IMG/VR virus record: IMGVR_UViG_3300021964_006628
Location: 1 to 42,764 of that record
Length of the DNA stretch: 42,764 nt
Direction: 5' to 3' (one strand)
Origin: a virus
The notes beneath the pieces are model-generated. The model was not told the DNA's origin and ran no database searches. It saw only the letters and a list, made by a program, of their open reading frames with translations. Position 1 is the first letter of the stretch. The number at the start of each line of letters is the position of its first letter. The translations under genes and the position numbers were made by a program. Below, in pieces: positions 740-37,845 of this stretch.

Positions 740-882
740 TTGTAAATGAAAGGATCCTTTTTTCTAATTTCAGCAATGCGTTTTTTAATTTCGCGATTCT
801 CTTTCCATTTGATATAGGGATATTTAATTATATCCATAATCTTTTTCCATAATTTTTTTAAAAAGTTTTTTACTCGAACCAT
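736..882 (-). CDS. Conserved small basic protein (48 aa)
   Basis: This 48-residue frame runs from ATG 882 to TGA 736. It is very Lys/Arg rich, with an amphipathic, helical look and the ending KRIAEIRKKDPFIYK. Its start lies inside the last codons of the primase gene, with AGAGGT as ribosome binding site 6 nt upstream. Its stop overlaps the carbamoyltransferase ATG. I recall a small protein with the same KKDPFIYK ending in marine T4-like phages, often beside a carbamoyltransferase. Function unknown; a membrane-surface or nucleic-acid-binding peptide is possible. The double overlap and good ribosome binding site make it a real gene. Confidence 0.7.
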   Translation of the reverse strand: MVRVKNFLKKLWKKIMDIIKYPYIKWKENREIKKRIAEIRKKDPFIYK

Positions 883-1853
883 TTTTTACCTCTCAATCTA
901 ATCTTTAACGGTGACGACTCTGCACTAACAGCAATACTGTGTAGTGTATATAGTCTGCCATACCGTTGTACAGCATCACCAATGTCAGTTATATCTTGCG
1001 ACCAATTAGGCATACTAACTGACCATCCTAATTCTATTGCACGTTCAATTAATTTTTGTCCTGCTTTATCTCTATCAGGCACAATAATAATTTCTTTCTG
1101 TAATCTATTTAACAACAGTGCCTGTTGATCAGATATTTCTGATCCACCCAATGCGCAGCCTTCTATGTGTATTGCATCTAGTTGTCCTTCACATACTATA
1201 GCAAACAATTTAGAATAATGTTGTTCGTCAAGACCGTATACAAAGCCAGGTTGTACTTCAGTCAAGTACTTGGGCTTTTTGTCCGGTACCACACTACGGC
1301 CTGTCCAACCTACTACCTTACCTTCAAAGTAAAAGGGTATAATCAACCTATCACGATATCCTAAGCTGGGGCTCCAGTAATAGTCTGTATCATCTACATT
1401 TAATCCACGTGATGCCATATACTCTAATATAGGCAAACTATATTTGTTGAAATCTGTAATATCAGCAATTTTAATTGCATCATCTGGCAACGGAACAGTG
1501 TTGAATGTAGGCATTTGGGCTATTTGTGTTTTGGCCTCAACACCTTCATTCTCTCTCATAACATCTAGTGCTACCTTGTTGATTACATCATCAGGTGCTC
1601 CCATCCATTGTAGGAGTTTACGCAGTTTATGTGAGAAGTTCCTGCCCGGTTGCCAGGACGCTTTGAAGCCGCAGTTAAAACAATGATAACTTATACCGCC
1701 GTCTGGATTGCTTATTAGGCCGCCGCGTTGTCTAGTGTCTTTTGAAGTACCATTATGATGACAACAGGGTGCATTAAAAGAAGTCCAACCACTAGGGGTT
1801 GTTTTCCTCTTAGGCGGCAAGTAAATCATAATTGTGTCAGAAACAGCACTCAT
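870..1853 (-). CDS. 61: DNA primase (T4 gp61-like)
   Basis: A 327-aa primase that would make RNA primers for lagging-strand synthesis with the gp41-type helicase. An N-terminal zinc site is visible as APCCHHNG (about residues 29-35) and HCFNCGF (57-63), typical of the zinc-binding domain of DnaG/gp61 primases. A TOPRIM domain follows, with IVCEGQLDAIHIEG (about 219-232) giving the catalytic Glu and IIVPDRDKAGQ (about 256-266) the Asp pair. An upstream in-frame ATG at 1880 exists, but 1853 is preferred: it lies 6 nt after a perfect -10 box (TATAAT, 1860-1865), so the mRNA would begin at or next to this ATG. No Shine-Dalgarno is properly spaced. An alternative start is 1829 (MIYLPP). Confidence 0.9.
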   Translation of the reverse strand: MSAVSDTIMIYLPPKRKTTPSGWTSFNAPCCHHNGTSKDTRQRGGLISNPDGGISYHCFNCGFKASWQPGRNFSHKLRKLLQWMGAPDDVINKVALDVMRENEGVEAKTQIAQMPTFNTVPLPDDAIKIADITDFNKYSLPILEYMASRGLNVDDTDYYWSPSLGYRDRLIIPFYFEGKVVGWTGRSVVPDKKPKYLTEVQPGFVYGLDEQHYSKLFAIVCEGQLDAIHIEGCALGGSEISDQQALLLNRLQKEIIIVPDRDKAGQKLIERAIELGWSVSMPNWSQDITDIGDAVQRYGRLYTLHSIAVSAESSPLKIRLRGKKWFE

Positions 1854-1859
1854 AGTAAT

Positions 1860-1888
1860 ATTATACCTGAGATATTGCAATTTGTCAA
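1860..1888 (-). promoter_or_regulatory. Sigma70-type early promoter of the primase gene
   Basis: Minus strand TTGACA (1888-1883), exactly 17 nt, TATAAT (1865-1860), then 6 nt (ATTACT) to ATG 1853. Both boxes match the consensus perfectly. Expected +1 falls at or within a base or two of the start codon, so the transcript should be leaderless. Confidence 0.85.
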
Positions 1889-4635: not shown

Positions 4636-5004
4636 ATGTTATTAAAAGATATACAAGAAAATTTTCCATTCGTTAGTGTTGTGTCATATGGTGACGCAGA
4701 ATACACCGGCATCATCATAAATCAGGACGCTCAGGTAACGTCTATGTATATGTTTGATCGTTTACGTACAGTTGAGGACAAACGTAAATTTATTGAGCTA
4801 GGAGAAATATGGTGGATGGAATCTAATAGATTAATACCTATTAGTATCTTTTTGCGAAAGGAAATGGAGCATTTTAGATATTCAATTCAAACTATGAATT
4901 CGAAAGACGTTCATGTAAAACTAGGTCCAGCAGTTAATCTAAATAATCTTTCTATTAAACGTATTAAACGTAAATCAGTTCAACTGGTTAGAAAGACTAA
5001 GTGA
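4636..5004 (+). CDS. Conserved hypothetical phage protein (122 aa), plus-strand island
   Basis: A soluble 122-aa protein with FVSVVSYGDAEYTGIIINQD (about 12-31), DRLRTVEDKRKFIELGEIWW (41-60), ESNRLIPISIFLRKEM (62-77) and a basic tail (KRIKRKSVQLVRKTK). I recognise the pattern YGDxEYxGIIINQD...ExWWxESNRxxPIxIFLxKEM from a protein of marine T4-like phages, function unknown. It is divergent from the structural gene at 4619, with only 16 bp between. Its last 30 bases overlap, tail to tail, the Bfd-like gene on the other strand. Only a degenerate late box (TATAAGTA, 4619-4626) could drive it, since no plus-strand gene precedes it. Confidence 0.8.
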   Translation: MLLKDIQENFPFVSVVSYGDAEYTGIIINQDAQVTSMYMFDRLRTVEDKRKFIELGEIWWMESNRLIPISIFLRKEMEHFRYSIQTMNSKDVHVKLGPAVNLNNLSIKRIKRKSVQLVRKTK

Positions 5005-5157
5005 TTTAACTTCCTCATTTATTTGTTTTAATGTCTCGCAACAAGTACAGCATTGCTGGCAAGCACCAGTTATACGTTTAATACTATCTAAATCGGTATA
5101 CTCTAACATTTCTCGTATTGTGCGATCAGTAATATTAGCGCAAATGCAAACTATCAT
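4975..5157 (-). CDS. Bfd-like [2Fe-2S] ferredoxin (60 aa)
   Basis: A short protein with CIC at residues 4-6 and CQQCCTCC at 33-40, giving the C-x-C...C-x2-C ligand set of bacterioferritin-associated ferredoxin (BFD-type [2Fe-2S]) domains, with the usual start MIVCICANITDRTIREM. In bacteria Bfd reduces and mobilises iron stored in bacterioferritin; in a phage it could supply electrons or release host iron, perhaps for the radical SAM enzyme nearby (inference). Its ATG overlaps the TGA of the upstream methyltransferase. Its 3' end overlaps the plus-strand gene by 30 bp. Two extra Cys (37, 40) are unusual. Confidence 0.75.
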   Translation of the reverse strand: MIVCICANITDRTIREMLEYTDLDSIKRITGACQQCCTCCETLKQINEEVKSLSLSNQLN

Positions 5158-5648
5158 CTTTTTCTATACCAAACATTGTTAGGTCCAATATCTATTAAGT
5201 CTACAAGTTCATTTACTGCTTGATTAACACCAACAAAATCGTAATCGTGTCCGCTGAATATTCCATTTGGTTTTACTTTAGATTGATATGCTAAGATATC
5301 GTTTTTACAGCCTTGGTAAGAATGATCACCATCTATAAAGATTAAATCGGCCTTTGGACAAAAGTGGGCAACTTTGGAACTGTTGCCCTGTATAGGAACT
5401 AACCTGTCACCGTATTTTTCTTTTACAGTATTATTATAGAATAAATTTATGTTTAAGTCCACACCATAAATTGTAAGGTTAGGAATTTTATCTAGTAGAT
5501 AAAAAGTAGTACGCCCGTCACGCACACCTACTTCTATCATACTAGAATAATTATTAGTTTCGATTAGGTGACGAAGAAAGTATTTTCTATTCTTCTTGCC
5601 CGGCCAGTCAATTGTCATTGACGGTGGAGGTTTAATCAGATTGGGCAT
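5154..5648 (-). CDS. Class I SAM-dependent methyltransferase (164 aa)
   Basis: Rossmann-type methyltransferase with motif I MIEVGVRDGRTTFYL (about residues 37-51), acidic strand-2 end YGVDLN (71-76), and LIFIDGDHSYQGCKNDI (about 104-120) with SGHDYDF downstream, the pattern of the Methyltransf_24 group. Its target is not evident. It shares the DGDHxY and GHDY/GDDY signatures with the products of 21623-22213 and 38897-39526. The start at ATG 5648 overlaps the upstream gene by 17 nt; ATG 5618 (MTIDWPGK) is an alternative. It is co-transcribed with the DnaE-like gene upstream and the Bfd-like gene downstream. Confidence 0.8.
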   Translation of the reverse strand: MPNLIKPPPSMTIDWPGKKNRKYFLRHLIETNNYSSMIEVGVRDGRTTFYLLDKIPNLTIYGVDLNINLFYNNTVKEKYGDRLVPIQGNSSKVAHFCPKADLIFIDGDHSYQGCKNDILAYQSKVKPNGIFSGHDYDFVGVNQAVNELVDLIDIGPNNVWYRKR

Positions 5649-6201
5649 TTAATTGTTCTACTAACAAATTCATATGTACTACACAAGCCATAGCATATGA
5701 TATAGCATGAGCTTTTTTAAAGTAGTAGGAACCGTCAGTAGGTTTAATCCATACTTCCTTCATTATTGTTTCCCAAGTCTCGTTGAGTAAATGCCTCTTC
5801 GCTGGGCGTATTATCGCTAATACTGCTGCCAGCTGCTCCACGTTTCTTGGACGCAAAGTGCGCAATACGTCGTTGTGATTGTTGAGATGAAAGACGTTTT
5901 TTGAAAAGTCGTCGTGCTCGAGAAGATCCCATAATGGCTCCTTATTGATTAGTTCTGTGAGATGATGTTCGTTCTTGATATCTTTATAAATTGAAACATT
6001 TAGAAAATCTAATTTAAAATAGCCGCGTTCTTCGGCAGTCTTGTGTTCTATTGTTGATAAATTGTCTATTGGGTTATGGGGAATCTCAGTAGCATATACA
6101 CCTGTATTGTGTTTTTTACCTGTATCTAATTTTGCAACACGATGTTGTATCTTATCTAAGATAACATCTCTATCTGCAAAATCTATATCGATATCTGGCA
6201 T
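5632..6201 (-). CDS. Miniature DnaE-like (family C polymerase palm) protein (189 aa)
   Basis: The protein starts directly at MPDIDIDF, which matches the PDFDxDF motif carrying two catalytic Asp of bacterial Pol III alpha. At GYFKLDFLN (60-68), D65 matches the third catalytic Asp in the VKFDFLGL motif. HNTGVYATEIPHNPI (31-45) resembles the conserved HxGGV segment between them. NVEQLAAVLAIIRPAK and FKKAHAISYAMA resemble the ALxRPGP and FNKSHAxxYA motifs. It is far shorter than Pol III alpha (over 1100 aa): no PHP, no OB fold, no beta-binding region recognised. A similar protein occurs in marine T4-like phages. Whether it polymerises DNA, repairs, or is regulatory is unknown. Coupled to the upstream gene by TAATG. 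Confidence 0.75.
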   Translation of the reverse strand: MPDIDIDFADRDVILDKIQHRVAKLDTGKKHNTGVYATEIPHNPIDNLSTIEHKTAEERGYFKLDFLNVSIYKDIKNEHHLTELINKEPLWDLLEHDDFSKNVFHLNNHNDVLRTLRPRNVEQLAAVLAIIRPAKRHLLNETWETIMKEVWIKPTDGSYYFKKAHAISYAMACVVHMNLLVEQLNAQSD

Positions 6202-6902
6202 TATAGGTTACTCTCTTTGGCAACGTCTTTGACTAGTTGCACATCCTTTGGCTGTCTATTAAATCTCATAGCCCAGTGTTCTGGATTCATTATATGATAT
6301 ACTATACTTAGTTGTTCTTCATTTAATTGTTGTAATAACTGTTTACCACTCTTACAATTTAGTAGCAACCAAGGAGATATCTTACCATCTTTAATATGCC
6401 ACACTGCTCTATTTAAAGATACGTGTTGAAAATAGTGATTCCACGGTGCAGGCGGATTCTCTTCAGCCCATTCCATCATAGTCATTATGCTTCTTTCTAG
6501 TGCTGTTTCAACACCTTCCTTACGTATAAGTTCAACAGCATACTTTTCATACATTTCTTCTCTACACCAATGATCGAGTTTGACACCGGATGTTACTACA
6601 TGATCAACATACTTTTCTGGATATAAAGGTCTAACGTTATTTACAAAACTGCCAAACTTTACAAACGCATTATAATAAGGACTTTTACAAAACTCTTCAT
6701 ATGTTTTGTCTTTCCTTGAGCCTGCACTCAGTGTATAAAATCGCTGGAATGCATAGAATCCTAACGTGACTCTTTTTTCATTTTTTTGTAAATGCCTTCT
6801 TTTTTGTTCGCATACGTGTACTGCTAAAGTTTTTTCTTTGCTATAACCAGTACCACAGTACTCGCACACATATGGTTTTTCAGAGGGCGTTTTCAATACC
6901 AT
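6201..6902 (-). CDS. Zinc-finger-bearing conserved hypothetical protein (233 aa)
   Basis: Near the N-terminus is YVCEYCGTGYSKEKTLAVHVC, a C-x2-C...H-x-C zinc finger of C2H2 style that suggests nucleic-acid binding. The rest is helical and Trp/Tyr-rich (FYAFQRFYTLS, WNHYFQHVSLNRAVWHIKDG, NPEHWAMRFNRQP) and matches no family I can name; similar proteins exist in marine T4-like phages. The open frame extends to 6950, but ATG 6902 (MVLKTPSEKPYVC) limits overlap with the upstream clamp-loader gene to 23 nt. It lies between the clamp-loader-like and DnaE-like genes, which suggests a replication or repair role (inference). Confidence 0.65.
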   Translation of the reverse strand: MVLKTPSEKPYVCEYCGTGYSKEKTLAVHVCEQKRRHLQKNEKRVTLGFYAFQRFYTLSAGSRKDKTYEEFCKSPYYNAFVKFGSFVNNVRPLYPEKYVDHVVTSGVKLDHWCREEMYEKYAVELIRKEGVETALERSIMTMMEWAEENPPAPWNHYFQHVSLNRAVWHIKDGKISPWLLLNCKSGKQLLQQLNEEQLSIVYHIMNPEHWAMRFNRQPKDVQLVKDVAKESNL

Positions 6903-7332
6903 GTTCTTCAGCCAATTGTTTGAGTTCTTTTTTTGTAGATAGTCTAGCAAGTATTTCTACCTCGTCTTGTTTCATATTTGGGAATATTTTTTCTAAGAGC
7001 TTAATTGCTTTGCTATTACTCTTGCCTTTTTGTTTAAATCCAATCCACTTATGGAATTCAATTTTGCCTGTGTTGCCTGCTTGGCACAACAACTGCCATT
7101 GCAACTTAGGATGACGGGTACCTAGCTCATTCCAATTTTTATTGTAATACTCGTTTGTTTTAAACACAGCAAGAGCTTGTTTTTCATAGTTTCCGTTTAT
7201 GCTAGACACATATCGATTCAGTAGCCAGTAATTAATTGACTTGCGCTCTTCGTCAGACAGTTCGTCATATACGGATTTGGCACCCATATCAATAGCGCCA
7301 AGAATATCTTTTAAAGGTAATTTATCACTCAT
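6880..7332 (-). CDS. 62: Probable DNA polymerase clamp-loader small subunit (gp62-like)
   Basis: 150 aa, beginning MSDKLPLKDILGAIDMGAKS, with a helical body (LSDEERKSINYWLLNRYVSS), AVFKTNEYYNKNWNELG, QLLCQAGNTGK, and a C-terminal helix LSTKKELKQLAEEHG. I recall proteins of this form being called gp62, the small subunit that works with the gp44 ATPase to load the sliding clamp, in marine T4-like phages; the match to T4 gp62 itself is faint. The frame extends 5 codons upstream, but ATG 7332 is chosen because it lies 6 nt after a sigma70 -10 box with no Shine-Dalgarno. Confidence 0.6.
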   Translation of the reverse strand: MSDKLPLKDILGAIDMGAKSVYDELSDEERKSINYWLLNRYVSSINGNYEKQALAVFKTNEYYNKNWNELGTRHPKLQWQLLCQAGNTGKIEFHKWIGFKQKGKSNSKAIKLLEKIFPNMKQDEVEILARLSTKKELKQLAEEHGIENAL

Positions 7333-7372: not shown

Positions 7373-7597
7373 TTATGACAAGTCTGTAATTAATTCTTTA
7401 AGTTCGCCAACAGTTGTAATATTGTCTATAGCATCGTCGTCTATTTCAACATCAAATTCGGTTTCAAGTTCCATTACTATTTCGACAACACTAAGACTGT
7501 CTGCTCCCAGTTCCTCTACTAGCATTGAATCATTAGTAATGTCTGCACCTTTAACGCTAAGAATTTTTTCTAATATTTTATTTAATCTATCGTCCAT
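7373..7597 (-). CDS. Acyl carrier protein (74 aa)
   Basis: A complete ACP: MDDRLNKILEKILSVKG, then ELGADSLSVVEIVMELE, with the phosphopantetheine-accepting Ser34 in the ADSLS motif, and an acidic helix III region (DVEIDDDAIDNITTVGEL). ACPs carry acyl chains as thioesters on 4'-phosphopantetheine in fatty acid, lipid A, lipopeptide or polyketide synthesis; this one would need the host holo-ACP synthase. The start is ATG 7597: it lies 6 nt after a perfect -10 box. Nine in-frame codons upstream would overlap the promoter. It is a single-gene unit with its own promoter, 40 bp before the clamp-loader promoter. It could redirect host acylation, for example for envelope or glycan lipid changes (inference). 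Confidence 0.92.
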   Translation of the reverse strand: MDDRLNKILEKILSVKGADITNDSMLVEELGADSLSVVEIVMELETEFDVEIDDDAIDNITTVGELKELITDLS

Positions 7598-7603
7598 AAT
7601 ATT

Positions 7604-7632
7604 ATTATAACAAAAACAAAACAAGTTGTCAA
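7604..7632 (-). promoter_or_regulatory. Sigma70-type early promoter of the ACP gene
   Basis: Minus strand TTGACA (7632-7627), 17 nt, TATAAT (7609-7604), then AATATT and ATG 7597. Perfect consensus; same 6-nt gap to the start codon as the primase and gp62-like promoters. The -35 box overlaps the end of the upstream coiled-coil gene. Confidence 0.85.
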
Positions 7633-8106: not shown

Positions 8107-8650
8107 CAAGTCTTCCTTTACTGTTTAATTTAGAATATTCTATTTTACCTAGAGAAGATATTTTACTAATCCACCAATCTTTGTTTTCTAAAATAAGATG
8201 TGCATTGCGCCCGTCTTCTAAAAATTTTCTAGCAGGCTGTGTATCTATTCTAAGCCATATAGATTTTGTAGCAAGACTATTAATGTGCTGTAATACATTA
8301 GACAAGTTTTCTGGTTCAATGTGTTCTAGTACATCGTTACAAAATACACACTCAAAGTTATCTTTAGTAATTTTGCTGAATTGTTTTACAGCAGGATCAT
8401 ATCCGTACCATTCTGACTGTGGAAACTTATTCTGCAAGTGTTCTAAAATATGTCCTTTGCCGCAGCCGTAATCTAGTATTGTTTTAGGATTCCATTTATT
8501 ATAGAAATGTAAAAACTTTCCTACGTTTTTTAATTTGCCGCCAAATCCCTGTTGACGTTTTTTGTCAACATGAACTTTTTGTAAAAGTTTTTTATAGGAA
8601 TCTGAAATTAGATTAGGATTCGGATCCAATTGTACGTCTCCAAATATCAT
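8087..8650 (-). CDS. Class I SAM methyltransferase (Methyltransf_11/12-like, 187 aa)
   Basis: Motif I is TILDYGCGKGHILEHL and the strand-2 acidic end is WYGYDP. CNDVLEHIEPENLSNVL is the classic post-IV D-V-L-E-H signature of small-molecule and sugar methyltransferases. The C-terminal half carries WLRIDTQPARKF. ATG 8650 (MIFGDVQ) is preferred to the upstream TTG. It overlaps the cupin gene by 38 nt, which suggests they act on the same pathway. Substrate unknown. Confidence 0.8.
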   Translation of the reverse strand: MIFGDVQLDPNPNLISDSYKKLLQKVHVDKKRQQGFGGKLKNVGKFLHFYNKWNPKTILDYGCGKGHILEHLQNKFPQSEWYGYDPAVKQFSKITKDNFECVFCNDVLEHIEPENLSNVLQHINSLATKSIWLRIDTQPARKFLEDGRNAHLILENKDWWISKISSLGKIEYSKLNSKGRLDVAIKK

Positions 8651-8963
8651 CGTGATTGAATTCTGCCCAGTAAAGTTCAAATGCTACTCCGTCCTCGACA
8701 CCTTCAAATTGATGAAACTTTCCTGGCTTAACTTGTGTAAAGTCGCCTGGTCCTAATATAGTTTCATCCACTAATCCGGTTTGTTCTTCGTCTTGCCAAA
8801 CTCGTACAATCATTTTTCCAGATTCAACATAGAAGCCATTCCATTTAAACTTATGCATATGTTCGGAACATTTATATCCTGCATTGTATTCAATCCTATG
8901 AAATTCTAATACACCGTTCTGATGTATTAATTCTGTTTGGCCCCAAATTTTTCCTGCTTTCAT
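8613..8963 (-). CDS. Cupin-domain protein (116 aa)
   Basis: A single-domain cupin. Motif 1 is seen as YKCSEHMHKFKWNGFYVESG (about residues 30-49), with two metal-ligand-type His and the closing Gly, and motif 2 as PGDFTQVKPGKFHQFEG (about 72-88) with the late His. Cupins of this size bind a metal and sugars or nucleotide-sugars as isomerases, epimerases or dioxygenases. A strong ribosome binding site (AAGGAG) lies 7 nt before the ATG. It resembles the cupin half of the 17007-17786 fusion. Precise reaction unknown. Confidence 0.8.
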   Translation of the reverse strand: MKAGKIWGQTELIHQNGVLEFHRIEYNAGYKCSEHMHKFKWNGFYVESGKMIVRVWQDEEQTGLVDETILGPGDFTQVKPGKFHQFEGVEDGVAFELYWAEFNHDDIWRRTIGSES

Positions 8964-9480: not shown

Positions 9481-10944
9481 TTAATTCCAGTTTATTTTTT
9501 CTATTGTAAAGGGATATTGTGCTTCTTTATAGAATTTTTTTCGTTGAGTCAAATGTCGTTTTGCAAATTTGCACGTCGAAGTGATATCCCAAATTTGCAC
9601 AAAATCTTTGTCTTTTGCCTTTCTTACGCCTCTGCCTATACTTTGTATTACCCTGACAAAACTTTTGCCAGGCTCAATGAGAACAAGATTAAAAATACGC
9701 GGTATGTTAATACCAACAGACGCGACCCCGTATGTTGCGATAACCACGTGGTTAGTTCCTTCATTGATTTCATCATAAGCATCTTTCCTATCTTTTAATT
9801 TTACATCTCCCTTTACAAATACTGATCCTGGGATTAGTTGTTGTAATTTCTCGCCTGCACTAATTCTGTCCACAAGAATTAGAGTGTTGCCTGATTGTTT
9901 TACATTGGTTAATAGTTTTGCAATATATTCTATTCTTGCATCATCAGTTACTAGATATTTTAGTTCTGACTGATAGTCTCTATGTTCTACTACATCTAGC
10001 AATTGACATATGTTAACATGACACTGAGCAAGTACACCTTTGTCTTGTAATTCTTTTGCTGTTATATTACCAATAACAGGACCCAAACTTGCATGAATTG
10101 ATTCAAACTCAAATCGTTCTTTAGGCACTGTTCCTGTTAGTCCCCAGCGTATAGGTGCATTTTTTAAATTACGTGTAAGTAAATTCTTTAACACTTCTGC
10201 TTTAGCTTGGTGTACTTCGTCAACAATAATTGTACTAACACCTTCTAAAAATTCTGCCAAGCTCAATACATCCTCATAGTTTTTACTTTTCTTATCTAGT
10301 ATGTTTAGACTTTGCCAAGTGCATATTGTGTGCGTCTTGCCTATTTCTTTTCTATCGCCAAAGTATACACCGACATCCAACCCGCAGTTAATATAATCTT
10401 CTTCTGTTTGTGTTACTAATGATTTGTTTGGTACAATAACAAGACTGCGGCCATAGTCTTCAGTGATATGACTTAGTGTGGCTGTGGTAATTGTTTTACC
10501 TGCTCCTGTTGCAATCTCTTGTAAACTTTGTGGATTGTTTAAAAAGTTATTAATTGCTTCTACTTGGTAGTCACGTAGAATAATATCTTCGCCTTCTGCT
10601 GGATGTCCCTTGGGCCATACAACGCCCTGATCCTTCCAATAGTTTTCTGTTACTGGAGTAAAGTTTAGTTTAACTGGGTGTCGCCTGTCTTCTATGTCTG
10701 CAATTTCTACACCGTTTTGATTTAATATTTCACAAATAGTATCAAGATGATTAACATATCCAGTACCGCCAATTCCAAAGAATGCAACTTTACCATCCCA
10801 TCTACCTAACTTATACTGGGGCATATATCGTGCATAAGGAACTTCAAACTTTAGTGAGTTTGCTATTTTACGCCGTATCTCAACCGGCAGTCCTTCTAAT
10901 TTTACGTTTACTTCGTCTTCAACAATTATTCTACAGCTAGTCAT
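9481..10944 (-). CDS. uvsW: UvsW-type SF2 DNA/RNA helicase
   Basis: 487 aa. An N-terminal DNA-binding region (about 1-110) includes PQYKLGRWDGKVAFFG. The helicase core has ATGAGKT (146-152, Walker A), VDEVHQ (241-246, motif II, DEVH box), LTGTVP (motif III, about 274-279) and IQSIGRGVRKAKD (motif VI, near 445). UvsW unwinds branched intermediates and R-loops, driving the switch from origin- to recombination-dependent replication in T4. The length matches T4 UvsW (about 500). The start ATG overlaps the upstream stop (ATGA) with GAGG nearby, so it is translationally coupled to 10941-12176. Confidence 0.93.
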   Translation of the reverse strand: MTSCRIIVEDEVNVKLEGLPVEIRRKIANSLKFEVPYARYMPQYKLGRWDGKVAFFGIGGTGYVNHLDTICEILNQNGVEIADIEDRRHPVKLNFTPVTENYWKDQGVVWPKGHPAEGEDIILRDYQVEAINNFLNNPQSLQEIATGAGKTITTATLSHITEDYGRSLVIVPNKSLVTQTEEDYINCGLDVGVYFGDRKEIGKTHTICTWQSLNILDKKSKNYEDVLSLAEFLEGVSTIIVDEVHQAKAEVLKNLLTRNLKNAPIRWGLTGTVPKERFEFESIHASLGPVIGNITAKELQDKGVLAQCHVNICQLLDVVEHRDYQSELKYLVTDDARIEYIAKLLTNVKQSGNTLILVDRISAGEKLQQLIPGSVFVKGDVKLKDRKDAYDEINEGTNHVVIATYGVASVGINIPRIFNLVLIEPGKSFVRVIQSIGRGVRKAKDKDFVQIWDITSTCKFAKRHLTQRKKFYKEAQYPFTIEKINWN

Positions 10945-22888: not shown

Positions 22889-23974
22889 TTATTCCTCAAT
22901 TGGTTGTTCTACTTCTAGGGCATCCTCTTCGTCTGCCATATCGATATTTACCTCATTGAGTAATTTCTGTTCGTAATCAGACATAACTGTATCGAGTAAT
23001 TCGCCAGTCCACTTCTTACGATAATCTAGTAGTTCTTCGCCTTTGCTTGTTACGTATTTGAGTCTATTACCACTCTTTTCAATAACACCCTTTGCTTCAA
23101 ACAATTCTACTAGACCACTGTAAGGATTCATTCCTGTCTCGTATGGAATCTTAACCTGTACACCCTCGAACGGTTTTGCATAACGTGTCTTCATAACTTT
23201 ACAGCCAGCACGGATACCCATAACTTGACTGATCTTGTTACCATCTTCGTCTTCTTTGAGCTTTAACTTCTTCATTGCTACAACTATGCTAGAAGCGTAT
23301 ATAAAGCCCTGTCCGCCACTTATTTTATCATCTGGATCAAACATATCCTGTGAAGCATAAGTATGGTTTGTACATACTAGTCCTACGTTATGAGACCCAA
23401 ACATATTTACTGAGTTACGTACAAGTGCTGTTAGTGCCTTAGGCTTACGACCCATATCACCTTTCATATCACCCTTGTTAAACTGATCAACATCTGTTGG
23501 TGTTAATAGCATACCTAGTGAATCAACTACAAACAATACTTTAGGACGTTCCTCCTCAGCCATTTCTTTGTAGTCTGCCATAAACGTACTAATAGTCTTT
23601 GCTACATCGTCAATCATTGACATATTAAGTTTTAGTAGTTTATCTTCTGATGTATCAACATCAAGTGCGTGTAGCCAGGCTTCGTCAAGTGCATTCTCTG
23701 AGTCAATAAGAACTACAAAGATACCTTGTTGCTGTGCTTCTTTTACAATATTACCAGCACAGATATAACTTTTACCTGCACCAGATTCTCCAGCAAACAC
23801 TGTTACCTTGCCTAGCGGTACACCTCTATTGAAGTCTCCACTAATAAGGTAGTTAAGTGCAAAGTTGCCAGTACTAATCCAGTCTGTAGGATCGTTAAAT
23901 CCTGCACTCATACCTGAAATAGACTTTGTCAAAGAATTTCTAAACTTTGACGGATCGAATGATTTTGTTGCCAT
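22889..23974 (-). CDS. uvsX: UvsX RecA-like recombinase
   Basis: 361 aa. VFAGESGAGKSYI (Walker A, about 59-71), VVLIDSENALDEAW (87-100, RecA strand with catalytic Glu) and KVLFVVDSLGMLL (Walker B, about 145-157), then NHTYASQDMFDPDDKISGGQ (L2/DNA-binding area). UvsX forms filaments on single-stranded DNA and drives strand exchange. Length is near T4 UvsX (391), with an acidic C-terminus (DEEDALEVEQPIEE). A good AGGAG ribosome binding site lies upstream, directly after the structured leader at 23999-24065. Confidence 0.95.
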   Translation of the reverse strand: MATKSFDPSKFRNSLTKSISGMSAGFNDPTDWISTGNFALNYLISGDFNRGVPLGKVTVFAGESGAGKSYICAGNIVKEAQQQGIFVVLIDSENALDEAWLHALDVDTSEDKLLKLNMSMIDDVAKTISTFMADYKEMAEEERPKVLFVVDSLGMLLTPTDVDQFNKGDMKGDMGRKPKALTALVRNSVNMFGSHNVGLVCTNHTYASQDMFDPDDKISGGQGFIYASSIVVAMKKLKLKEDEDGNKISQVMGIRAGCKVMKTRYAKPFEGVQVKIPYETGMNPYSGLVELFEAKGVIEKSGNRLKYVTSKGEELLDYRKKWTGELLDTVMSDYEQKLLNEVNIDMADEEDALEVEQPIEE

Positions 23975-24073: not shown

Positions 24074-25057
24074 TTATTGTCCTTGACGTGCTCTGATCAT
24101 TTTAAGAATGTCATTTGCATCACCACCGCCCGAAGCTGGTGCTTCTTCTGCTACTGGAGCAGTTGCCGGTGCTTCTTCTGCTACTGGAGCAGTTGCTGTC
24201 TCAGGTGCTGGTGTAGCCGCTGGTGCAGGAGTCGATGCTGTTGGAGCAACCGGATCGCCTGTACGTTGTGCCATGCCTGCTGGACGGAAGTATTGACCAA
24301 ATCTATCCATGTCATATGCTTCACCATCTACTGATGCTTCAAACATTTCCTTAATAACCTTAACTGCCAATTCATCTGGCTTTTTAGGAAGGAAATCACC
24401 CATATTAAACAAGCCGTGTGTATTAACAGCAGCCATTTCTTCATCACTAAGTGGACGTTCTCTACGAGCCCAGTTAGATGTTGAATAGTCTGCATAACCA
24501 CCTTTCGTAGTTTTGTTTAATCTAAAGTCTACACCTGCTGTGTAATCTGTTGGCATTTCTTCCATATCAGGGTCCATTAGTGCAGCCTTGATAATTTGGA
24601 AAATTTGCGGACCAATAATAAATCTACGGATTGGATTCTCTGGAGTAGTGTCCTCTGCTAGTGGATTATCAGTTACAAAGCCTTGGAAAATGTACGAACG
24701 CTTTTTCCAGTATTTTCGACCCATATCTTCTAATGAAGGGTCCTTAAACCAAGGACGTACTTCACTTAGTACTGGACAAGTTTCACCATACATTTCCATA
24801 CATGGTACTTGCACTTGTACTGGACGTGAGTCAGTTTGTCCTTTCACACCAGCAAACGGTAGTTTGATCATCAAACGTTCTTGCCAGAAGAAAGTATTAT
24901 TTTCATCTCCATCAGGAAGGAAACGTAGAGTTGAACTCTCGCCTTCTTTCATATTCCAAAATGGATAAATTGCGTTGTCCCCGCCGGAGCTTTGAGAACC
25001 ACCTGTGCGTGATTCTTGTTCTTTCAGTTTTGCTCTGATTTCTGCTAAAGATGCCAT
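24074..25057 (-). CDS. 32: gp32-like single-stranded DNA-binding protein
   Basis: 327 aa, near T4 gp32 (301). N-terminal basic segment ASLAEIRAKLKEQES resembles the LAST-type self-interaction region. The core has YPFWNMKEGESSTLRFLPDG and MEMYGETCPVLSEV with part of the zinc-type Cys set. The C-terminal tail is Ala/Pro/Glu rich and ends GGGDANDILKMIRARQGQ, a flexible tail for binding partners. The tail contains a DNA-level duplication (24138-24197). GGAGG is 8 nt before the ATG. Driven by the overlapped early/late promoter at 25136-25164. Essential for replication, recombination and repair. Confidence 0.93.
   Translation of the reverse strand: MASLAEIRAKLKEQESRTGGSQSSGGDNAIYPFWNMKEGESSTLRFLPDGDENNTFFWQERLMIKLPFAGVKGQTDSRPVQVQVPCMEMYGETCPVLSEVRPWFKDPSLEDMGRKYWKKRSYIFQGFVTDNPLAEDTTPENPIRRFIIGPQIFQIIKAALMDPDMEEMPTDYTAGVDFRLNKTTKGGYADYSTSNWARRERPLSDEEMAAVNTHGLFNMGDFLPKKPDELAVKVIKEMFEASVDGEAYDMDRFGQYFRPAGMAQRTGDPVAPTASTPAPAATPAPETATAPVAEEAPATAPVAEEAPASGGGDANDILKMIRARQGQ
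24138..24197 (-). repeat. 30-bp direct repeat in gp32 C-terminal tail
   Basis: Two near-identical 30-bp copies in tandem (24138-24167 and 24168-24197) encode a repeated TAPVAEEAPA decapeptide. The second copy differs at its last base. Probably slippage expansion in a flexible linker. Confidence 0.85.
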
Positions 25058-34566: not shown

Positions 34567-37500
34567 TTATAGACCTGCAATTTCGCCAGTATTCTTAAGT
34601 CTCAGCGGAATGTAAATAAATTCTACTGCCTTAACTGGTTCTATAGCGATATCTAAGTATAGTTCGTTACGATCTATTCTTCCTGGTGTGTTGTTACTTT
34701 CGTCACAAACAACTAAGAAGTCATAAAGTGCTCTTTGACCTACAAGCTCAATAAGTAAACTTTCTGCTGCTTGTTTGATTTGATCACGTGTGACCTTATC
34801 ATTTGGTTCAAAGATATAAGGTTTTGCAAGTTTCTTAAGCTGGCTGCGTAAGTGAACTACCAAACGTGCTACGTTAATTCTATCAACTGCACTAGCACCT
34901 CTAGCTCTAGTCTTTTGACCAAAGTTAACAAGGCCTGCACCTGTTAAGAATGTTAATGGGTTAACATTAACACCATACAGTGTATCACGTTGTCCTTCGT
35001 TAAGTGCTACTGACTTAAATTCGCCTTCGTCAGTAACATAACCTACTGCTGTAGCATTTGTAATGCCACCACGTCTTGTACCTGCTGGTGCAAACCATGG
35101 ATAACTTACCTGATCACTTAATGCAATAGTTCTTAGCATCATGTGCGAAGCTGGAACTACAATGTTGTTACCAAAGTTATCACTTGTAAATCCTGCTGGA
35201 TAAAAGATGCCTAAATATTCATCTGATGTTGCCAAACCGTCGTCATTATCTTCAACTGCAACTGCTATGTTATTACCCCAGTTATTTAAGGTAGTAGCAT
35301 CTGATGTTAATCTAAATGGTGAATCACCAACAACAAAAGCACTAAGATTTCTGTCATAGTTTAATGTTACCATTTCACCAATAAGTTCTGGATAACCAGG
35401 TGTTGCCATTAAGTTAAAGATTCTTGATTCGTCATCTCTAATATCTTGGTTACTGTTAACTAGTGATTGCAATCCTTGTACAACAACTTTGCGCTGAGCT
35501 TTTCTACCAAATGAACCTGATCCGTCATCTTGGTTTCCTGACTCAGTTACCCATCTGTGTGGATAGTAACTTGCCATTGACTCGTCACTGTTTCTTTCGT
35601 TGTCAGCAGTTAAGTCAATGTAATTACGTACAAAACGCTTAACATTAAAGCCAGAACGTCTTAAGTTCCAAAGCAACATACCTTTTGGATATAGTGCAGG
35701 ATCTGGAGCGTCTGGATCTAAGTAATTGCTTGATAATAGATCTACAATTGCTGCATCGTCTGATGCTGCGCCTGAAGCTGCCCATCTTGCGTCTGCAAAA
35801 AGGATACCTTCTTCTGTTGTTTGGTCTCCACTATCTACTAATTCCCAACGTGTAAAGTTTTTGTTATACTTGTAAACTGATGGATAGTTATCTAAGTCTG
35901 ATGTTGAAATCCAAATGTCACCTGTTACTAATGGTGTTGCATCTGATTGCTCAGTTGGCTCACTAGCAGAAACAATAGGACCTTCTGGGTCTGTTTTGTC
36001 TCCGTCTACAAGTGTGTAATATGGACTTGTGCTGTGTTGCATTCCAACCCATGAAGTTCCGTTGTGTACTAACATATCAACTTCGTCAACTACTGAGCTG
36101 TACCATAATGCGCCGTTTGCAGCAAGTGCAGCTGGAGCAGTTCCTGAAGCAGTATAAGTTAATGGAATCCAAAGACTTGCAACAAAGTCATTTACTGTAT
36201 CGCCTGTAGGAGCAGCATAAAGGTTAGTTGTTCCTGTAGCAGATGATACGTTATAAGCAGCAAAGCCTATTTCATTTAAATGACCAGTTGTATCTGCAAG
36301 ACGGAAGTCGCCGCCTGTGCTATGCTTAATAACTAATTTGTTATCTGTAGTTACAGATGCTTCTATATGTTCTAAACCAGCGCCGTTGATTGCACCTGCA
36401 ATAACGTCTGCGTCTGTGCTCGCACCAGTTACAGAACCTGCTACTGTTACAGCAGTCTGTAATGCTTGTGCGCCAATGTCGCTTTCTGAAATAGTAAAAC
36501 TAAATGCGCCTGATGATGCTTGTTCATCAATGACTGCACTAGTAATAGTAGTAGCACCTACAGCACTTCTTTTATAAATTTTAAATTCTGCTATTGGATC
36601 ACTTGCTTCACCAACGTTTGACTTAACATATAAATTACTAACTGCTAAGTTTGCACCGCCACCTGATTTATCTAAGCCGTACAATGCTGAATGGCCGTTA
36701 TCATAAATCGGTGCTGAAAACTCGTCAAATAGTGCTGTATCTGAATTAAACTGTTTTACTCTCCATCTAGCACCACTGTTTGGTTCTGTAGTTTTTAACC
36801 ATACAGAGCCAGTTGGTCTTGGGTTAGCGTCACTTGTTTTGTATTCAGGTATTAATGTGTGTGGTTGAATAACAAGATCTGGTGCATAAAAAGTACCAGC
36901 TGTTAAACCTAAGTCTGTTAACAAACTGTCACCTGATTCTGCTGCAAGCAATAAATTAACGCCTTCTGAATAAATTTCTAATGCGCCGTTGACTGCTGCT
37001 GCTGTAATACCTTGTGCAACTAATGCAGATTCACTATTGATTTTTCCTGCTATTTCAGTTACAGTATCACCTGGATCAGCAGTAATAGTGTAAGCACTAT
37101 TAAGTTGCATAGATGCGCCTGAAGTAATTGTTGGATTAGCAATTGAGCCTGTTACTACAGGATGGCTTTTTGCCCAATCTGTCGAGCCAACTTGCACCCA
37201 TGTACCCGAACTATTCTTATACCAAATAGTGTTCAGTGTTGTAATAGCAACAATAGCATATTGTCCTATTGTGCCTACTGAAGTTTTAGGAGCACCTGGA
37301 GCTGATGATGTACCAGTTACTTGACCTACTGTTGTAATTACTATAGGAGTTTTAACTGTAAAACTTTGTCCGCCTACAACTGTTGCGGCATTTCCGTTCC
37401 ACTCAAAAATACCATATGCAGTATTTGCTGTGTCGAACCACCATGTTCCGTTTGCAGGGTCAGCAGTTGGAGCAGAACTTGATGCTTCAAGTTGCCCTAA

Positions 37501-37845
37501 ATCTACGTCTGATCTAACAACATATGCTCTGTTACTAACACCTAGTAATGAGTATGCTGCTTGTAATCCATATTCGTTTGTTTCACCTGCGTGTATTGGA
37601 TTATTGTTGTTGTCCACTTTGAAGACAGGGTCTCCAAAAGTTTCTACTAAATCACGCTGCGATGTAATTAAGTAAGGTACGCCTGCATTTGCTTTTAATG
37701 TTCCCGGCGCAACTCCTGTGCCACTTCCGTTTTGTTTGTTTTCGGCGGAAGTAACGAAAATCATTGGTACGGTGCCTGGTTCAGCTGGGGTGTAAAAACT
37801 TTCGTCTATTACCTTAACTTCAACACCTGGTGATGATAATGCCAT
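34567..37845 (-). CDS. 18: Tail sheath protein (gp18)
   Basis: 1092 aa, much longer than T4 gp18 (659). N-terminal MALSSPGVEVKVIDESFYTP and PMIFVTSAENKQNG, and C-terminal ITNATAVGYVTDEGEFKSVA, NVNPLTFLTGAGLVNFGQKT and IDIAIEPVKAVEFIYIPL are the sheath core. A large insertion (about 120-680) holds repeated Trp-rich modules: GTWWFD (133), NTIWYKNSSGTWVQVG (205-220), GSVWLKTTEPNSGARW (346-361), GALWYSSVVDEVDMLV (578-593) and GDIWISTSDLDNYPSV (642-657), probably exposed Ig- or beta-type domains. AGGAG precedes the ATG. It follows a late promoter and reads toward gp19. Confidence 0.95.
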   Translation of the reverse strand: MALSSPGVEVKVIDESFYTPAEPGTVPMIFVTSAENKQNGSGTGVAPGTLKANAGVPYLITSQRDLVETFGDPVFKVDNNNNPIHAGETNEYGLQAAYSLLGVSNRAYVVRSDVDLGQLEASSSAPTADPANGTWWFDTANTAYGIFEWNGNAATVVGGQSFTVKTPIVITTVGQVTGTSSAPGAPKTSVGTIGQYAIVAITTLNTIWYKNSSGTWVQVGSTDWAKSHPVVTGSIANPTITSGASMQLNSAYTITADPGDTVTEIAGKINSESALVAQGITAAAVNGALEIYSEGVNLLLAAESGDSLLTDLGLTAGTFYAPDLVIQPHTLIPEYKTSDANPRPTGSVWLKTTEPNSGARWRVKQFNSDTALFDEFSAPIYDNGHSALYGLDKSGGGANLAVSNLYVKSNVGEASDPIAEFKIYKRSAVGATTITSAVIDEQASSGAFSFTISESDIGAQALQTAVTVAGSVTGASTDADVIAGAINGAGLEHIEASVTTDNKLVIKHSTGGDFRLADTTGHLNEIGFAAYNVSSATGTTNLYAAPTGDTVNDFVASLWIPLTYTASGTAPAALAANGALWYSSVVDEVDMLVHNGTSWVGMQHSTSPYYTLVDGDKTDPEGPIVSASEPTEQSDATPLVTGDIWISTSDLDNYPSVYKYNKNFTRWELVDSGDQTTEEGILFADARWAASGAASDDAAIVDLLSSNYLDPDAPDPALYPKGMLLWNLRRSGFNVKRFVRNYIDLTADNERNSDESMASYYPHRWVTESGNQDDGSGSFGRKAQRKVVVQGLQSLVNSNQDIRDDESRIFNLMATPGYPELIGEMVTLNYDRNLSAFVVGDSPFRLTSDATTLNNWGNNIAVAVEDNDDGLATSDEYLGIFYPAGFTSDNFGNNIVVPASHMMLRTIALSDQVSYPWFAPAGTRRGGITNATAVGYVTDEGEFKSVALNEGQRDTLYGVNVNPLTFLTGAGLVNFGQKTRARGASAVDRINVARLVVHLRSQLKKLAKPYIFEPNDKVTRDQIKQAAESLLIELVGQRALYDFLVVCDESNNTPGRIDRNELYLDIAIEPVKAVEFIYIPLRLKNTGEIAGL

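Follow-up and report, generated by a model that had tools for sequence, protein, structure and literature searches.

A 189-residue DnaE-like protein of an environmental phage is probably the C-terminal half of a split, minimal C-family DNA polymerase

The window, i.e., the whole stretch of 42,764 nucleotides analysed here (IMG/VR record IMGVR_UViG_3300021964_006628), carries replication and recombination genes in a T4-like context, as well as a T4-type terminase and a sheath-like protein. The question raised by this locus is why such a phage encodes a very short protein resembling the alpha subunit of the bacterial DNA polymerase III. A first reading, made from the sequence only, recognised five motifs of the Pol III alpha palm and fingers including three catalytic aspartates, and left open whether the product is a minimal enzyme, a decoy for the host clamp or tau, or a polymerase relic. 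We consider an active two-subunit, thumbless auxiliary polymerase to be the most likely explanation, and the product of the ORF (C-half) to be probably the C-terminal subunit of this minimal, C-family enzyme.

The ORF was confirmed on the minus strand with an ATG start, encoding 189 amino acids. The motifs PDIDIDF, HNTGV, FKLDFLN, AIIRPAK and FKKAHAISYA were all found where they had been reported, starting at residues 2, 31, 62, 129 and 161, and their order is that of DnaE. The C-half matched the family PHROG_11778, annotated as DNA polymerase (E=3e-59), and the full DnaE family phrog_405 (E=4e-7); Pfam alone was weak, with the fingers domain at E=0.03. In tblastn searches near-full-length relatives were obtained from 63 phage records, the 60 records listed being genomes of jumbo phages or shorter entries from these phages. 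Among the matches listed, identity was 54% to PA5oct-like phages, approximately 50% to Phosso and Atu_ph07, and 31-37% to RaK2/GAP32/121Q/Munch-like phages. The window protein was aligned with those of Atu_ph07, GAP32 and RaK2. Pattern searches built on single sequences (SCTP-2, Vibrio phage proteins) gave no matches; patterns built on alignments were successful. A wider family in environmental phages had been anticipated, and at least 548 IMG/VR stretches indeed contained relatives of the C-half, including a close one with 74% identity on contig G003. Given the PHROG_11778 match and the near-full-length homologues in both phage records and IMG/VR, the ORF is not a product of chance.

Table 1. 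Positions of the C-half, its motifs and neighbouring genes in the window.
Feature	Position	Strand	Remarks
CDS of the C-half (split minimal Pol III alpha)	5632..6201	-	189 aa, phrog_11778
PDIDIDF, catalytic Asps	6178..6198	-	D3=E. coli D401, D5=D403, D7=D405; invariant in 152 distinct relatives
HNTGV	6097..6111	-	H31=H511, G34=G514 of E. coli DnaE HAGGV
FKLDFLN	5998..6018	-	K63=K553, D65=D555 (third catalytic Asp)
AIIRPAK, fingers	5797..5817	-	R132=R639, P133=P640
FKKAHAISYA, fingers steric gate helix	5692..5721	-	H165=H760
C2H2-like zinc-finger protein, phrog_11058	6201..6950	-	upstream, overlaps C-half (TAATG stop/start)
Methyltransferase (Methyltransf_24)	5154-5648	-	directly downstream of C-half, overlapping
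Small convergent gene, phrog_11637, no assigned function	4636..5004	+	conserved near C-half
DNA primase, gp61-like	870..1880	-	same replication module; 139/173 loci
UvsW helicase	9481..10944	-	same replication/recombination module
UvsX/RecA-like recombinase	22889..23974	-	T4-like context
gp32-like single-strand DNA-binding protein	24074..25057	-	T4-like context

A search with PF07733 detected a second, separate gene (N-half) in each of Atu_ph07, PAC2, Phosso, GAP32 and the 237-kb IMG/VR contig G003. All five also encode a family B polymerase, which had been expected to accompany the short protein and was found in genomes of related phages, not within the window. The N-half belongs to the phrog_11127 family, is 170-185 aa long and stops just past GRGS...EFL, the segment found ahead of PDFDVDF in DnaE; in the large-genome relatives it is usually encoded far from the C-half. 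Since these genomes carry the N-terminal, GRGS-containing part of the palm on another gene, the C-half is not a lone mini-enzyme, and the suggestion of a stand-alone minimal enzyme was abandoned. The N-half recovered the same phages as the C-half in tblastn searches, with 59 of the 60 records listed for each being common. The sole listed record with only the C-half was a 109-kb entry, and the sole listed record with only the N-half may sit among three unlisted C-half records. Fourteen large IMG/VR contigs were chosen for carrying either half; seven had both halves, all seven together with PolB, and the other seven, which may be fragments, had one half each. The L023 contig (G002, 261.8 kb) contained a C-half with no detectable N-half or PolB, being either a fragment or a real exception. 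No fused ORF was observed among 175 + 175 matched ORFs. Neither a match to the N-half nor a GRGS segment was found within the 42.8-kb window, so the window's own N-half and PolB are placed outside the contig and the pair is deduced from its relatives.

AF2 models of both halves were built from the family alignments, with pLDDT of 93.2 for the C-half and 92.1 for the N-half. The similarity to the family C palm, previously read from the motifs, was recovered in the C-half model, which aligned to Pol III alpha over 185 of 189 residues (Z 9.6, rmsd 3.7; VIA-align). All its matches above Z 4 were Pol III or PolC, the best unrelated chain reaching Z 3.5. The C-half model covers residues 461-841 of the Taq enzyme, 400-784 of E. 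coli DnaE, 419-811 of MTB DnaE1 and 970-1301 of PolC, and residues 73-183 of the N-half model cover 279-393 of E. coli DnaE, 305-413 of MTB DnaE1 and 824-965 of PolC (VIA-align). For the N-half the best match had Z 13.0 and the next 2.0; its first approximately 72 residues are outside the structural matches. The two ranges do not overlap on DnaE and are separated by 4-6 residues, and a profile search of PDB sequences gave the same boundaries. As modelled, the two halves are one DnaE palm cut in the six-residue loop before the catalytic aspartates (equivalent to 394-399), and the split removes the conserved FLNPER-linker Arg. The thumb insertion of DnaE and much of the fingers are deleted in the C-half, the spacing from PDIDIDF to H31 being around 22 residues versus around 104 in E. 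coli. The PHP and (HhH)2 domains are nearly universal among bacterial Pol III alpha members, and the C-half family is without them. In profile searches of 17 genomes, with positive controls, HhH_6 (PF14579) was found in none and PHP (PF02811) gave no match over the cut-off. Sequence comparison and modelling together establish the homology, the fold, the complementarity and the co-occurrence of the two halves.

Residue equivalences were set by alignment to E. coli DnaE (Table 1). All three catalytic aspartates proposed at the outset are present, but the numbering D5/D7/D65 was shifted by one aspartate, the triad by alignment being D3/D5/D65. In DnaE the catalytic metals are coordinated by D401, D403 and D555, while D405 is kept in DnaE and replaced by Asn in PolC (PMC3919608). 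This DnaE-specific fourth aspartate, D7, was present in 152/152 C-halves, which makes the C-half DnaE-like rather than PolC-like. The equivalents of D401, D403, D405, H511, G514, K553, D555, R639, P640 and H760 were invariant in all 152 distinct C-halves, and GRGS in all 137 distinct N-halves, with the limit that some search patterns included DIDID, IRP or GRGSS and conservation at exactly those positions is thus partly ascertained; the equivalents of K553, H511, D555 and H760 were absent from the patterns of the second C-half search. The aspartates were therefore conserved among homologues, as had been supposed, in a set whose pairwise identity goes down to 29%. H760 is the predicted steric gate (PMC8485763), and the retention of its equivalent favours use of dNTPs. 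Median dN/dS was 0.105 for the C-half (56 pairs) and 0.114 for the N-half (61 pairs), every pair being below 1 in both cases; both halves evolve under purifying selection.

The explanation which we consider most likely is as follows. By sequence and model, the C-half carries the catalytic strand, on which the equivalents of D401, D403 and D405 lie, as well as the K-x-D strand (K553, D555) and shortened fingers that retain the steric-gate His; the N-half carries the stretch of palm that comes before, GRGS included. We infer that the two subunits come together to form a single active site, in which the N-half would hold the triphosphate and the C-half the metals, the template and the sugar. As PHP, thumb, HhH, clamp-binding and OB parts are all lacking, a weakly processive, template-dependent DNA polymerase is to be expected. 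It may work beside the phage family B replicase on short stretches, with primer extension, gap filling and recombination-coupled repair as candidate tasks. The two-subunit polymerase is supported by the complementary coverage of DnaE, the confident models, the invariant active site, the co-occurrence of the halves, the low dN/dS and the synteny. The same prediction was reached independently by Iyer et al. 2021 (PMC7824862), which also counts in its favour. Counted against it were the missing thumb, which leaves the holding of duplex DNA unexplained, the loss of the FLNPER Arg, and the weak sequence similarity to full DnaE. That the thumbless two-protein palm is a dedicated primer-extension or gap-filling polymerase handing over to the family B replicase is a tentative suggestion only, and so is the parallel that such a hand-over would have in Firmicutes, where DnaE passes synthesis on to PolC.

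The gene context fits an auxiliary role, with primase, helicase, UvsW, UvsX/UvsY, clamp loader and often a DnaQ exonuclease. In several isolates, a GroES-like gene and that of the gp44 clamp loader lie downstream of the N-half. A DnaQ-like exonuclease was located approximately 2-5 kb from the C-half in 6/10 isolates, several of the phages bearing it being related so that the cases are not independent, and approximately 2 kb from the N-half in G003. The gene for the C2H2-like protein of phrog_11058 was present at 153/173 C-half loci, and its product is a candidate partner. The phrog_11637 gene was near the C-half in 165/173 loci, always on the opposite strand and at a median distance of 5 bases; a profile search found it in all ten isolates examined. 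The context fits all candidate tasks, and does not choose between primer extension, gap filling and repair.

Several other explanations were weighed. The halves could be a non-catalytic, DnaE-like scaffold, able to bind primer-template, or else the replisome of host or phage, and performing no synthesis, in the manner of ImuB, the inactive Y-family homologue. The small size, the loss of thumb, clamp-binding, HhH and OB parts and the complete PolB in the same genomes speak for such a scaffold, but inactive homologues usually lose exactly those residues (metal-binding Asps, Lys, fingers Arg and steric-gate His) which are invariant here even at 29% identity, and we regard it as unlikely. The pol-beta-like nucleotidyltransferase fold includes non-templated transferases, and the pair might accordingly reuse the DnaE palm for end-tailing, primer initiation or nucleotide modification. 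The DnaE palm does belong to this fold (PMC7824862), and there is no thumb; the fingers have nevertheless kept the conserved IRP segment and the steric-gate helix, as expected for templated dNTP selection, and a non-templated or special nucleotidyltransferase appears somewhat less probable still than a scaffold. The proposal of a polymerase relic or a host-replisome decoy could draw on the 189 aa of the C-half against the 1160 aa of DnaE, and on the lack of a pairing partner within the window. It is disfavoured by the invariant active site, K553, R639 and H760 included, by dN/dS around 0.1 in both halves, by hundreds of intact copies and by the conserved partner half; moreover, the clamp- and tau-binding parts, which a decoy aimed at these proteins should have retained, are absent. 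We therefore hold a relic or decoy to be very improbable. Joining of the halves into a single polymerase by a split intein or at the RNA level, which the intein-split cyanobacterial DnaE (PMC3919608) and the intein in PolB of the related phage MIJ3 bring to mind, is the least credible of all, as the boundary of the palm is where both ORFs start or end, with ordinary start and stop codons and without an extra domain, the stop-to-stop lengths of 154-232 aa (one of 310) leave no space for intein segments, and the six-residue linker is simply absent.

The two-subunit polymerase has a place in the literature. A split minimal Pol III alpha was already described in the 'group 2.2' jumbo phages by Iyer et al. 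2021 (PMC7824862), who proposed that the two halves rebuild the enzyme and may cooperate with PolB in one-strand synthesis or repair. The window ORF belongs to the same protein family, the C-half being phrog_11778 and the N-half phrog_11127. The likeness extends to the replication-module setting and, as judged from the relatives of the window, to the division into an NTP-binding N part and a metal- and template-binding C part, the distant genes and PolB in the same genomes. The window differs in that it is an IMG/VR contig whose protein is at most 54% identical to those of isolate phages, and in that the 42.8 kb include neither its N-half nor its PolB. Earlier genome papers recognised no more than a 'truncated' alpha subunit in CBB and one alpha subunit in Atu_ph07. 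Passages of a study on marine jumbo phages (PMC9123017) present PF07733 as the sole cluster-specific gene in more than half of the members (51.9%) of cluster PGC_A; this is the same model that detects the N-half, the passages tie it to no second half, and the PGC_A gene is presumably the N-half of this pair. With bacterial DnaE (E. coli DnaE, MTB DnaE1) the split polymerase has in common the palm and fingers fold, the motif order and the D405-type aspartate, but it consists of two chains and is without PHP, thumb insertion, HhH, clamp-binding, OB and tau-binding regions. The DnaE proteins of Streptomyces phage Caliburn and Enterococcus phage VPE25 are also phage-borne C-family polymerases, but unlike the split halves they comprise approximately 1180-1290 aa in one gene. 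A literature search, with most subscription journals outside it, found no experimental study of split Pol III alpha. The window is a further member of this known, widespread and apparently uncharacterised split polymerase, which occurs on hundreds of environmental contigs. The present analysis adds a junction placed by structure, an active site found invariant in hundreds of environmental sequences, the tight co-occurrence of the two halves and a set of conserved neighbouring genes. It is rare for the active site of a polymerase to be shared between two genes. Were this pair active, it would represent a very small C-family polymerase and help to explain why giant phages equipped with a full family B replicase retain a second, bacterial-type enzyme.

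Some further DnaE-like genes were encountered during the searches. The families phrog_7513 and phrog_13169 (461-463 aa) match the N-half near their C-termini, and may represent a further DnaE split at about this position, here with an N-terminal extension. The distant N-half tblastn matches of VPE25, ATCCB and MA9V-3, considered as another split, were all single-chain DnaE. IMG/VR contig 3300032334_001259 (G011), which carries PolB and both split halves, has in addition a third DnaE (L358:1644-3338, plus strand), a single chain of 565 aa with no PHP domain; it adjoins a DnaB-like helicase, and its nearest phage relative is LR756508.1 at 37%.

The remaining observations concern the minus strand of the window. 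The Methyltransf_24 gene was matched in 7/173 loci and is thus probably a local insertion. At 4975-5157 there is a small BFD-like [2Fe-2S] ORF with a Pfam match just below the cut-off (E=2e-5). Within the phage replication region an acyl carrier protein-like gene (PP-binding, E=5e-13) is found at 7373-7624. A cupin or cysteine dioxygenase-like gene (phrog_7851, E=7e-14) is located at 8613-8963. The ORF at 34567-37845 encodes a protein of 1092 aa with a tail-sheath C-terminal domain, an unusual length for a sheath protein.
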